64,000 bases of DNA from assembly GCA_003216915.1 (NCBI GenBank), contig QCIB01000004.1, positions 1 through 64,000 on the forward strand, read 5' to 3'. Shown here piece by piece: positions 16,384-19,588 of this stretch (position 1 is the first letter of the stretch; each line of letters opens with the position of its first letter). This DNA comes from Prochlorococcus sp. AG-402-I23. Its GTDB lineage: Bacteria; Cyanobacteriota; Cyanobacteriia; PCC-6307; Cyanobiaceae. The notes beneath the pieces were generated by a model, which worked only from the letters and a program-made list of their open reading frames with translations, did no database searches and had not been told where the DNA came from. Both the position numbers and the translations under genes were made by a program.

Positions 16384-16995
16384 TTAGTTGTTTGTGAAAG
16401 TAGTTGCCCACCTATCTCGAGTTTCTTTATTAAAAGGTGGTAACCATAAATATATCAGTTGCTGTTCTAATTTACGTCTTAATTTTACTTCTTTAGGTAC
16501 ATCTAAGAAGAAACGAATATCTTGGTGACTTGAGAGTTTGTTATGAGCTAAGGCTTCTTTATAGTTCATGAGGTAATTTTTACAGTCATGTTCTCCCTTC
16601 CATCTTTTATTTGCCGAATTTGTTTCTCCTATATAAAGGATTATTTTAGAACTCTCCATCGAGTCAATTACAAAATACATTGCTGGACCATTGTGTATAT
16701 ATTGATTGGTTCTCCAAAAGTTCAATGATAATGGCTGCAGGGAAAACGGATCAATTTTTCTTTCATTGGAAATTGTATTTATAGGAAGACTTGTTTGATG
16801 CAAAGTTTTATTATGATTATCTTTTGTAATTTTGAATTGGTGATTATATATTCTATTTCTCCATTCAGTTAGGATTTCGCCTTTGATTTTTAGATTTTTT
16901 GAGTGTTGAAAATTAATTGATGTATTTACATTTGAACCAAATAATTCAAATTGTCTATTTTGATTTGAAATATTATTTACGTTAAATTTTTCCAA
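16384..16995 (-). CDS. GIY-YIG-like nuclease fold protein, function unknown
   Basis: A 203-residue protein whose central part looks like a GIY-YIG domain: AMYFVID at about 105-111, then ILYIGETNSANKRW (119-132) supplying Y121, G123 and R131, and a downstream Glu in RRKLEQQLIYLWLPPFN (E177). The first 100 residues are not recognised. The spacing and YIGETN motif suit a small GIY-YIG family seen in cyanobacteria (from memory, not checked). It could be a repair nuclease or a non-catalytic binder. It lies 24 bases upstream of pepA on the same strand. Confidence 0.6.
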   Translation of the reverse strand: MEKFNVNNISNQNRQFELFGSNVNTSINFQHSKNLKIKGEILTEWRNRIYNHQFKITKDNHNKTLHQTSLPINTISNERKIDPFSLQPLSLNFWRTNQYIHNGPAMYFVIDSMESSKIILYIGETNSANKRWKGEHDCKNYLMNYKEALAHNKLSSHQDIRFFLDVPKEVKLRRKLEQQLIYLWLPPFNKETRDRWATTFTNN

Positions 16996-17146: not shown

Positions 17147-17179
17147 ATGGGATTCTTTGAGTCTGAAAAAAACTCATAA
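17147..17179 (+). pseudogene. 10-codon relic of the DUF1825 gene
   Basis: The short frame encodes MGFFESEKNS then TAA. Its first 20 bases match the first 20 of the intact DUF1825 gene at 19265 with only two differences (18/20), and both copies begin at the ATG. Its last codons (E-K-N-S-stop) resemble the intact gene's end (D-K-T-S-stop). It therefore looks like a copy with an internal in-frame deletion. It lies in the gap between the GIY-YIG gene and the HNH gene, in the same orientation as the intact copy. That it marks an insertion boundary is inference. Confidence 0.5.
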
Positions 17180-17200
17180 ATTAATAAAGAAAAAATAATT

Positions 17201-18610
17201 TTAATTCATGTCTTGACCCTTATTGAATTTTTTCCATCTCCATTCCAATGCTTCTTTACTTGGTGGATATTTGAGATGCCTTAGATTTGAACGCATTATT
17301 TGGAGAGAGTTAAGATTATTTTGATTATTTGGTATTATCTCCAAATATTTTGGATCAATACTCCATTTATTAAGATCAAAAAGTGAATGATGATTTCTAC
17401 ATAACCATATTCCATTACCAGATTGATCTCCCCCATTATCTTTTACTGGTCTAATATGTGCTGCTTCAATAACTTCTGGTAATGCATCACATAGAACACA
17501 ATGTTTGGGACCGATTCTTTTTAGTAATTTTTTGCGAAAAACTTCTTGACTTCTTTTTTTTGATTTTGTTGTTTTTACAGAGATTTCTCTCTCTTGAAAA
17601 GTGTCCTCTTCTTCAATAGGTATTTCATAGTCATCTTTCCCACCTTCAGAAAAAGTTATAACAATAGAGTTATCTTCTGGTGAATCATAAAGAACAAAAA
17701 CTTTATCTACTTTTCTCCTTTTACCAGAATTAATTAATTCACCTTTCTCATTTGCATTCCTTATTAAAAATATTGGAAGTTTTAATTGCATTGCAGATCT
17801 AAGTGATTCAATATCTGCTGAATCTTGACCTCTCATTTCAGTTTTGGGATAGTCATAAGTTCCTGTCTCTTCACCAAAGTCATCTTCATATTTGCCTCTA
17901 CTACTGATACCCACACATACACCTTTCCCAGATGGAGTGATGTCACTGGTATTTTTAGTATCTCTCCATATCCCTCTAGCACTCCCATAGCATCCTATGG
18001 ACCTTACTTCTTCAGCAGTAAGAGGTCTTATATTTTGAATTTTTTGTATTTCCATCCACATTTTTTCTCTTCTTTCTATTTCAACTTTTAATGCAGTATC
18101 GTTGAATGATTTTTCAAAAAATGGAATTTGAAAAGCAGCAACAATTTTCTCGGAACTTTCATTATCAAATGTTGTATAACCTTGGATATAAAACTTTTCC
18201 TTATAACCCATCACTTTCTTTAATACATCAAGTGGTACATTTATTTCGTTAATCTCATCAATAAGGAACATATTTTCCCATAATTGACCATCCTCTTTAA
18301 ATCCCCAAAGATATTCTGAGAATTCCTTATTTTTAAACTTTGCTGTAATCTTTCCGCAACTAAAAAAAGTTTTATCCCTATACATTATGCAAATATCGTC
18401 TTTTTGCATTGTCTGCCAATTTTTATAGTTGGAATTATTTTTAGCATTGGTTACTCCCCAGCATGCATAGGCATCATCTTTCAATGTTGAGGTCAATTTT
18501 TTGTCATTTTCAAAAAGAATTATCTCCTCTCTAGGAACTAATTTTTCAATAGTTTTTGCGTGATGCTTTCTAGCATATTTGTCGCCACAAGGAACAATAT
18601 GAACTCTCAT
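17201..18610 (-). CDS. EVE-like / SRA-like / HNH putative modification-dependent (type IV) restriction endonuclease
   Basis: A 469-residue protein with three parts. Residues 1-165 resemble the PUA-like EVE/YTH reader fold (ACWGVTNAKN, DDICIMYRDKTFFSCGKI). Residues 205-335 resemble the SRA/YDG modified-base reader: KYEDDFGEE, TYDYPKTEMRGQDSAD and LPIFLIRN match the order YEDD - GRDQ - N - PV.VIR. Residues 358-420 form an HNH nuclease with CVLC (371-374), EAAHIRP with H385, and LCRNHHSLFD with C404, H407 and H408. SRA-HNH and EVE-HNH architectures are known modification-dependent restriction enzymes, so cleavage of modified DNA is the likely role. Its ATG overlaps the mazG-like stop by 4 bases. 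No DNA methyltransferase lies beside it. The HNH assignment is firm, SRA moderate, EVE tentative. Confidence 0.72.
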   Translation of the reverse strand: MRVHIVPCGDKYARKHHAKTIEKLVPREEIILFENDKKLTSTLKDDAYACWGVTNAKNNSNYKNWQTMQKDDICIMYRDKTFFSCGKITAKFKNKEFSEYLWGFKEDGQLWENMFLIDEINEINVPLDVLKKVMGYKEKFYIQGYTTFDNESSEKIVAAFQIPFFEKSFNDTALKVEIERREKMWMEIQKIQNIRPLTAEEVRSIGCYGSARGIWRDTKNTSDITPSGKGVCVGISSRGKYEDDFGEETGTYDYPKTEMRGQDSADIESLRSAMQLKLPIFLIRNANEKGELINSGKRRKVDKVFVLYDSPEDNSIVITFSEGGKDDYEIPIEEEDTFQEREISVKTTKSKKRSQEVFRKKLLKRIGPKHCVLCDALPEVIEAAHIRPVKDNGGDQSGNGIWLCRNHHSLFDLNKWSIDPKYLEIIPNNQNNLNSLQIMRSNLRHLKYPPSKEALEWRWKKFNKGQDMN

Positions 18611-18960
18611 AATTCTGTGTATTTAAGAGATTTCCCTTTTGATTTCTCAATTGGATATTTCTTCGAATTTAAGTCAATTTTTTTAAGCGCAATTTTTTCT
18701 AAATCTATATCTAACAAATCGACAAGTTTAACAAGATAGTTAAAAATATCGGCAATTTCCGATTCAATTTCCTCTTTTGAATTTTCAATAACATCTTGAC
18801 CACCATCGAGAGACCATTGGAATATTTCTAATAATTCTGATACTTCTACTGTTAATGCCATAGCAAGATTTTTTGGTGTATGAAATTTTTCCCAATCGCG
18901 TTCTTTTGAGAATTTTATGAGTTTATCTTTAATTTTTTTCAAATCCACTATTTCCTTCAT
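18607..18960 (-). CDS. MazG-like nucleotide pyrophosphohydrolase (RS21-C6/dCTPP1 type)
   Basis: A 117-residue all-alpha NTP pyrophosphohydrolase. The magnesium-binding helices are clear: E39xxE42 with E45 in TVEVSELLEIFQW, and E68xxD71 in SEIADIF. The HTPKNLAMAL...FQW arrangement is close to RS21-C6 (dCTPP1), which removes dCTP analogues including 5-methyl-dCTP (known for the mammalian enzyme). ATG start at 18960. It is transcribed before the HNH nuclease and coupled to it by an ATGA overlap, so the two are very likely made together. One inference is that it keeps modified nucleotides out of host DNA; general nucleotide sanitation is the conservative alternative. Confidence 0.8.
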   Translation of the reverse strand: MKEIVDLKKIKDKLIKFSKERDWEKFHTPKNLAMALTVEVSELLEIFQWSLDGGQDVIENSKEEIESEIADIFNYLVKLVDLLDIDLEKIALKKIDLNSKKYPIEKSKGKSLKYTEL

Positions 18961-19063
18961 TTGTAAAAATCTTTTTTATCACTAGAGATAAACTAGTCAT
19001 TGCTAGATATGAATTCACTTTAAATTTAAATATCTTCAAATAAATCTTTGTGTTTAAAAATTT

Positions 19064-19081
19064 AGGTAGTATTTTCTACCT
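19064..19081. repeat. inverted repeat AGGTAG-(6)-CTACCT in the mazG-like / DUF1825 gap
   Basis: A perfect 6-bp inverted repeat with loop TATTTT. A second short inverted repeat, ACTAG (18981-18985) with CTAGT (18993-18997), lies closer to the mazG-like start. The 304-base gap 18961-19264 must hold promoters for both directions, so these could be operator or transcript-end elements. No T-run follows, which argues against a classic terminator. Confidence 0.3.
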
Positions 19082-19117
19082 TTCAATTATTGGTAAAATA
19101 TATTAGTTTAGGACAAC

Positions 19118-19228
19118 ATGAGTGCAACATCACTTCAAATCCTTTGGTATCAGGAAGTGAAAAACAAGAAAAGTTGTACCGCACCAACTTTATTATTCAA
19201 TGATGCAAAATCATCAAGTCAGTTATAA
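19118..19228 (+). CDS. possible 36-residue small ORF upstream of DUF1825
   Basis: ATG at 19118 opens a 36-codon frame (begins MSATSLQILWYQEVKN, ends SSSQL) closed by TAA at 19228. Composition is protein-like rather than low-complexity, and it lies in the only long stretch between the mazG-like gene and DUF1825. A shorter ORF (19203-19262, ending GSQRLGGGL) overlaps its end in another frame. There is no strong ribosome binding site. It could be a small protein, part of an untranslated leader, or chance. Confidence 0.3.
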   Translation: MSATSLQILWYQEVKNKKSCTAPTLLFNDAKSSSQL

Positions 19229-19264
19229 TAATGGTTCTCAGAGATTAGGGGGAGGATTATAATC

Positions 19265-19588
19265 ATGGGATTCTTCGAGTCAGACATCGTTCAAGAAGAA
19301 GCTAAAAAGCTTTTTACAGATTATCAAGAACTTATGAAACTTGGTTCTGATTATGGAAAATTTGACAGAGAAGGGAAAAAAATGTTTATAAAAAAAATGG
19401 AATCTCTTATGGATCGTTATAAGGTTTTTATGAAGAGATTTGAATTGTCTGAAGATTTTCAAGCAAAAATGACAGTGGAACAATTAAAGACACAGTTAAG
19501 TCAATTTGGGATTACTCCTGATCAAATGTTCGATCAAATGAATAAAACCTTAATAAGAATGAAGGATGAACTTGATAAAACTTCTTAA
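19265..19588 (+). CDS. DUF1825 family protein
   Basis: A 107-residue, highly charged, mostly helical protein of the cyanobacterial DUF1825 family (MGFFESDIVQEEAKKLF start, later LSQFGITPDQMFDQM). Its function is unknown. ATG at 19265 is preceded by GGGGGAGG, a strong ribosome binding site. tyrS follows after 19 bases, so they may form an operon. The first 20 bases recur with two changes at 17147, where a decayed copy appears to remain. Confidence 0.85.
   Translation: MGFFESDIVQEEAKKLFTDYQELMKLGSDYGKFDREGKKMFIKKMESLMDRYKVFMKRFELSEDFQAKMTVEQLKTQLSQFGITPDQMFDQMNKTLIRMKDELDKTS

Follow-up and report, generated by a model that had tools for sequence, protein, structure and literature searches.

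A gene for a MazG-type nucleotide pyrophosphohydrolase and a gene carrying a YTH-like reader domain form a pair that recurs across prophages and distantly related bacteria, suggestive of a kind of restriction not yet described. The pair was studied in the window, i.e., the whole stretch of 64,000 nucleotides analysed here, which comes from a Prochlorococcus genome of 37 contigs and 1.42 Mb that is 87.6% complete. We read the two genes as a mobile type IV (modification-dependent) restriction unit that carries its own nucleotide-pool enzyme for self-protection, and we judge the chances of this reading to be about even. The components are known; as a conserved two-gene system it had no match in the literature searched, and we regard it as a novel type IV variant.

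Both genes lie on the minus strand. The mazG gene (18607-18960, 117 aa) is followed by the gene for an HNH nuclease (17201-18610, 469 aa), and the mazG stop codon and the nuclease start codon share the four nucleotides ATGA (18607-18610, minus strand), an overlap that the original prediction had reported and that both reading frames reproduce. The closest named relatives found are the Prochlorococcus single-cell genomes AG-388-F11 and AG-442-M23 (loci L030 and L033), in which both frames are intact, with 96% and 94% identity to the window for the nuclease and 99% and 97% for mazG. The original prediction had interpreted the locus as a nuclease with an EVE-type and an SRA-like reader, accompanied by an RS21-C6-type MazG that clears modified nucleotides. 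The type of MazG, the base-reader fold at the N-terminus, and the conserved pairing were upheld; EVE ranked behind the TgMcrB type as the nearest fold, and SRA was not confirmed.

The first 165 residues of the nuclease (18116..18610, minus strand) are, by their predicted structure, a PUA-superfamily reader domain of the YTH-like type. The structure was predicted for the corresponding domain of L033, which is 94% identical to that of the window, from an alignment of 14 rows, and the model has a mean pLDDT of 90.8. The top Foldseek match was the N-terminal domain of Thermococcus gammatolerans McrB (TgMcrB; 6p0f, E 2.8e-7, TM 0.70), followed by a YTH domain and then by VcaM4I and 2p5d. Alignment with VIA-align gave a Z score of 14.8 for TgMcrB (rmsd 2.8 over 152 residues), 12.0 for VcaM4I, 11.8 for both 2p5d and 1wmm, which we take to be EVE proteins, and about 10 for YTH domains. 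The EVE entries scored below TgMcrB, yet above most YTH entries. A profile search of PDB sequences with the domain led to the same TgMcrB protein (E 4e-4). The claim of an EVE-type reader was correct as to the base-reader (PUA-superfamily) fold; in the structural comparison, the YTH-like domain of TgMcrB (Z 14.8) comes closer than EVE (11.8 to 12.0).

Residues 4-162 match PHROG 14240, a family without assigned function (E 1.5e-22), and in PADLOC the reader had one weak match, to ZorE2. Six residues of the domain (H16, W51, N61, D72, W102, and W111) are identical in 20 out of 20 aligned relatives, and two of the three tryptophans may form a base cage, as in YTH structures. The title of one PDB entry for the TgMcrB domain reads "bound to m5C DNA". 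In the available portions of two papers, the same domain is described as a YTH domain binding 6mA (PMC7897488, PMC12707154).

At the other end of the nuclease, the predicted HNH motif is present with all five of its residues (C371, C374, H385, C404, and H408), and residues 371-419 (17354..17500, minus strand) match Pfam HNH_2 (PF13391) with 35.9 bits against a cut-off of 21; no other Pfam family was over its cut-off in the 469-aa protein. The central region (residues 191-345; 17576..18040, minus strand) is a candidate for a second, SRA-like reader on account of the motifs YEDD (241-244), RGQD (260-263), and LPIFLIRN (278-285), the order of which, as we take it, resembles that of SRA domains. 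The region shares 55% identity with a portion of a 298-aa HNH protein from a cyanobacterium of the same family (L008). It had no match in Pfam up to E 10, in a profile comparison with the N-terminal domain, or in plasmids, phages, and viral contigs, and a profile search of the PDB with it returned no SRA. An AF2 model of the region on four sequences had a low pLDDT of 39, and no fold was read from it. A plasmid protein (L112) tried as a bridge from the region to SRA was found to have an EcoRII-N-like region instead; the SRA protein of the archaeal virus HHPV4, sought through an HNH domain, was absent among the 30 of 121 records listed; and the SRA family gave one sub-threshold match in 194 genomes and none in 14 control genomes. 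Because the SRA reading of residues 205-345 or so had no Pfam or PDB profile match, the claim of two reader domains is half supported, namely by the N-terminal one, and the central region is possibly a second, SRA-like reader.

The mazG product (18607..18960, minus strand) belongs, as had been claimed, to the RS21-C6/dCTP-pyrophosphatase type of NTP pyrophosphohydrolases. Its matches to PDB sequences include 4qgp (E 4e-22) and RS21-C6/dCTP pyrophosphatase 1 (E 6e-22), it is over the cut-off for Pfam PF12643, and it contains the acidic ExxE...ExxD metal motif of this type, the residues of which (E39, E42, E68, and D71) are identical in 20 out of 20 aligned relatives. A search of the window genome with PF03819 gave four matches in three other reading frames and none at the window locus, and PADLOC gave one weak match of the window MazG, to a type IIG model. 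A characterised MazG relative prefers dCTP and 5-modified dCTP, according to the accessible part of its description (PMC7162842).

The association of the two genes was followed in 44 records, which were gathered by similarity to the N-terminal domain, some of them via the whole protein containing it; the plasmid records fetched were a part of the plasmid matches to the domain. These records comprised 34 bacterial or bacterial-type viral contigs (for 9 of 13 viral contigs, the bacterial type was judged by gene content) and 10 archaeal ones including one archaeal provirus. A MazG profile built from eleven mazG genes seen at reader loci was run over all reading frames. The mazG gene lies directly upstream of the YTH-like domain, on the same strand, in 26 of the 34 bacterial or prophage records, with a spacing of -8 to +37 bp between the stop of mazG and the beginning of the reader match; in one of the 26 (L038), mazG is cut by the contig end. 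In another record (L035), mazG is on the opposite strand, behind a McrB-like gene and the next gene. Only pieces of mazG are present in three bacterial records, in each of which the nuclease frame beside them is open (L040, 2730-2951; L048, 2681-4869; L049, 2694-2986), and the profile found no mazG in four others (L031, L032, L034, and L064). No archaeal record has mazG upstream (0/10); a 33-residue antisense MazG match at 1e-3 in the archaeal L041 was disregarded. Among 20 control HNH loci without the N-terminal domain, none had a MazG match. A conserved pairing elsewhere, the absence of which would have spoken against the original prediction, was thus found in 26 of 34 records versus 0 of 20 controls.

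Within the order, homologues of the window MazG occur in 8 of 299 genomes, and seven of these are exactly the genomes with the N-terminal domain. The eighth match (G267, L080) is weak, lies in a frame with eight stops, and was not counted. This co-occurrence, together with 26/34 versus 0/20, rules out a chance pairing of mazG and the nuclease. A phylum-wide search with profile A1 of the N-terminal domain gave one match in 386, the window itself. In 27 records, mazG is either complete or cut; 20 of these were aligned, the seven left out being near-duplicates or partial, and the 20 form 14 groups at more than 35% N-domain distance, L035 included. Reader and MazG distances are correlated among the 20 pairs (Mantel r 0.64, p 1e-4) as well as among the 14 dereplicated ones (r 0.33, p 0.018), i.e., the co-phylogeny is modest after dereplication. 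The central region and the HNH domain were considered as the tie of MazG to the locus and were ruled out, since L008 has both of them and has neither the N-terminal domain nor mazG. Therefore, the pairing goes with the YTH-like domain.

The small size of the upstream gene and the overlapping or close frames (-8 to +37 bp) would also suit a unit resembling a toxin-antitoxin system, in which direct contact with the MazG protein holds the nuclease in check until MazG is lost. We consider this very unlikely, because the seven bacterial records in which mazG is absent or in pieces (L031, L032, L034, L040, L048, L049, and L064) have an open, putative nuclease frame, and because the MazG residues kept in 20 out of 20 relatives include the metal site, which would be needless for pure binding. 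The same seven records and the 10 archaeal ones without mazG upstream suggest that the reader can work without mazG. On haloarchaeal plasmids (L041, L047, and L066-L072), the YTH-like domain is part of HNH proteins, of proteins carrying a restriction-endonuclease annotation, and of short proteins, with mazG not upstream.

The reader is joined to different effectors. The HNH domains fused to it are of the PF13391 type in the window, L037, and L058, of the PF01844 type in L055, and without a Pfam match in L051 and L065. Two further records have the domain on McrB-like AAA proteins with a further gene behind them and mazG near, i.e., upstream in L028 (1120-6194) and nearby on the opposite strand in L035 (4902-9038). 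The names McrB and McrC were given to these genes by eye; the AAA_5 match of L035 is strong (2.7e-26), and L028 has sub-threshold Pfam AAA matches only and a strong match to PADLOC PDC-M26A (2.7e-47). An Archaeoglobus provirus has the reader on an AAA protein with a PD-(D/E)XK protein behind it and without mazG. Since it occurs on differing HNH types and on AAA proteins, the reader behaves, as far as its sequence contexts indicate, as a restriction specificity module that can be exchanged, and bacterial mazG appears to travel with this module and not with one nuclease.

These exchanges bear on the possibility that the pair has no part in DNA restriction, so that the PUA-type domain would read modified RNA or the two genes would merely ride on a mobile element as an unrelated metabolic function. 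Most of what is known of related YTH and EVE domains concerns modified RNA, as stated in the available part of one paper (PMC7897488), and the pair is indeed mobile. Nevertheless, such a passenger would not keep company with a single domain in 26 of the 34 bacterial records yet miss 20 HNH controls, and the reader is swapped among HNH and McrB-like effectors in the manner of the specificity domains of restriction systems. We give this explanation little credence, and retain that of a type IV restriction unit.

The mobility of the pair is visible in the window, where it is carried by an insertion of 2,118 bp (17147..19264, no strand assigned) that is absent from 25 of 30 Prochlorococcus loci examined, these being the 30 best among 53 genomes that have the flanking 107-aa gene, out of 61 searched. 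At the 25 loci, the sequence passes from window position 17166 straight to 19265 with an overlap of 20 bp, which places the insertion at the start of the 107-aa gene. The insertion is flanked by a 20-bp repeat, the left copy of which (17147..17166, plus strand) has 18 of 20 bases equal to the right copy, the first 20 bases of the 107-aa gene (19265..19284, plus strand); there are only these two such 20-mers within the window. The 20 bases are found once at the 25 empty sites and twice in the window, L030, L086, L091, and L102. Of these, L091 has a short non-coding remnant in addition to the repeats, and L086 and L102 have another gene in place of the pair. L033 has the right repeat copy only, even at 14 of 20 matching bases, and an extra 373-aa gene; the thirtieth locus (L107), which is genome G285, carries the pair. 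No integrase was found within the insert in the window, L030, L086, L091, and L102.

The 5' end of the 107-aa gene, upstream of tyrS, is an insertion hotspot in Prochlorococcus, the cargo of which varies (mazG and nuclease, a TPR-like protein, or none) and is flanked by a repeat of the first 15 to 20 bases of the gene. Adjoining the insertion, and near the site in L033 as well, is a gene for a 203-aa protein with a sub-threshold GIY-YIG match (window 16384-16995). Among viral contigs, neither the full nuclease nor profile A1 of the N-terminal domain as query gave a match, and a broader profile of the domain (A2) gave 13. The pair is present in all 13 prophage-like viral contigs fetched, several of which have it beside apparent terminase genes, as judged by eye.

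Methyltransferase genes were surveyed as well. No DNA methyltransferase was seen by eye among the neighbouring window ORFs, and the window genome, at 87.6% completeness, had no match to PF00145, PF01555, or PF02086 (C5, N6_N4, and D12) and one sub-threshold match to PF02384. A C5 methyltransferase is present in three of seven carrier genomes and an N6_Mtase-type gene in one or two of them (with an in-frame stop in G145 and partial in G173); this survey did not separate the seven carriers from six non-carriers and is weak evidence. Collectively, a modified-base reader domain (residues 1-165, by fold) fused to a nuclease domain (HNH_2, residues 371-419), no cognate methyltransferase among the nearby ORFs and the families searched in the genome, mobility, and exchange with McrB-like proteins are as expected of a modification-dependent restriction enzyme.

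The following mechanism is proposed. The mazG gene is encoded first and is probably translationally coupled to the nuclease. The nuclease would bind DNA by its YTH-like, base-flipping domain and, in the window clade, by a second, possibly SRA-like, region, and the HNH domain would cut when a modified base is present. MazG would hydrolyse the matching modified dNTP to the monophosphate. In this way, host DNA would stay free of modified nucleotides arising from salvage, the phage, or nuclease-degraded phage DNA, and the nuclease would not be turned on its own chromosome. Modification-dependent cleavage, the substrate of MazG, and its protective role are what we infer. Because mazG follows the reader, we think that MazG acts on a substrate akin to the target of the reader and keeps such nucleotides from host DNA. 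As to the base that is read, analogy points in two directions, from the fold of the reader to 6mA and from the MazG family to modified dCTP. With a TgMcrB domain that is reported to bind 6mA and characterised MazG relatives that prefer (modified) dCTP, the reader and the sanitising enzyme might not share a base.

Alternatively, the two genes may be two weapons, in which MazG destroys the modified or canonical dNTPs of the phage, thus starving it or de-modifying its DNA, and the nuclease cuts modified DNA that is still made. The occurrence of the pair on prophage-like contigs would suit such a role, and an enzyme whose metal site is intact would be active under both explanations. Furthermore, the MazG domain is among the predicted, unvalidated defence domains of DefensePredictor, without partner details in the accessible part of that source (PMC13092281). 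On the other hand, mazG tracks the reader and not defence genes generally (0 of 20 HNH loci without the reader), and by removing the mark on which the reader depends, MazG would counteract the nuclease; neither consideration settles the matter. We consider the two-weapon explanation rather doubtful, and continue with MazG as a means of self-protection.

Compared to known systems, the pair exhibits several distinguishing features. First, VcaM4I and other EVE-HNH enzymes likewise have a PUA-superfamily reader followed by an HNH nuclease, and VcaM4I was the third structural entry (Z 12.0); in the window, by contrast, the reader is nearer to TgMcrB, a MazG gene is coupled to the nuclease, and the window clade has an extra central region. 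Second, the McrBC system of T. gammatolerans shares the fold of the reader, being the best match by both fold and sequence profile, but its reader is on a GTP-dependent McrB, while that of the window is on an HNH nuclease. Third, the HNH domain aligns with that of TagI-type SRA-HNH enzymes (profile E 4e-4); these enzymes are single-gene, and an SRA domain in the window protein was not confirmed by profile searches. Fourth, the window MazG resembles RS21-C6 and human dCTP pyrophosphatase 1 in sequence (E 6e-22) and in its acidic metal motif; those are stand-alone house-cleaning enzymes, whereas the window mazG is tied to a nuclease.

In the usual account, type IV enzymes have no partner, and their hosts do not carry the mark in the first place. 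No pairing of MazG with EVE, YTH, type IV or HNH, McrBC, or an operon endonuclease was found in the literature searched (for McrBC, titles and abstract openings), nor was anything found there on modification-dependent restriction together with a pyrophosphatase and a modified nucleotide, and MazG is nowhere mentioned in the main text of either the EVE/DCD survey or the CoCoNuT paper. PADLOC models match HNH, Nudix, and AAA parts. If the proposed mechanism is true, a conserved dNTP pyrophosphohydrolase partner implies a genuine danger of self-targeting by way of stray modified nucleotides, and the substrate of MazG would reveal the base seen by the reader. It could also explain why MazG and Nudix proteins appear among defence-gene predictions.

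Other nucleotide-pool enzymes stand next to restriction nucleases as well. On two Priestia plasmids (L046, 2603-3810; L114, 2103-3310), a MutT gene has a 4-nt overlap with the start of an HNH nuclease gene, and the N-terminal region of these nucleases is other than the YTH-like domain and is without a family name. A Paenibacillus plasmid (L044, 2296-3759) encodes a single protein with an HNH and then a NUDIX domain, the latter matching PADLOC PDC-S07 (1.3e-45). MutT homologues have been noted beside SauUSI, as given in part of one paper (PMC7641849), and MTH1, a MutT homologue, removes N6-methyl-dATP according to an excerpt of another (PMC7152754). From what is available on them, the MutT beside SauUSI and the Nudix candidate PDC-S07 resemble the window pair in having a nucleotide-pool enzyme next to a modification-dependent restriction enzyme and differ from it in having an unrelated enzyme fold and other readers. 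MutT genes overlapping HNH nuclease genes, a Nudix domain fused to one, and MutT by SauUSI suggest a common principle served by two unrelated enzyme folds. We tentatively propose, at somewhat less than even chances, a widespread form of restriction in which self is protected through policing of the precursor pool instead of marking of DNA, such that reader-nucleases are inherited with a pyrophosphohydrolase (YTH-like readers with MazG, other readers with MutT or Nudix enzymes) that would remove the modified dNTP they would otherwise find in host DNA. An Aerococcus plasmid (L042, 1-3792) has a cytosine methyltransferase, a MutH/Sau3AI-type endonuclease, and an HNH nuclease together.
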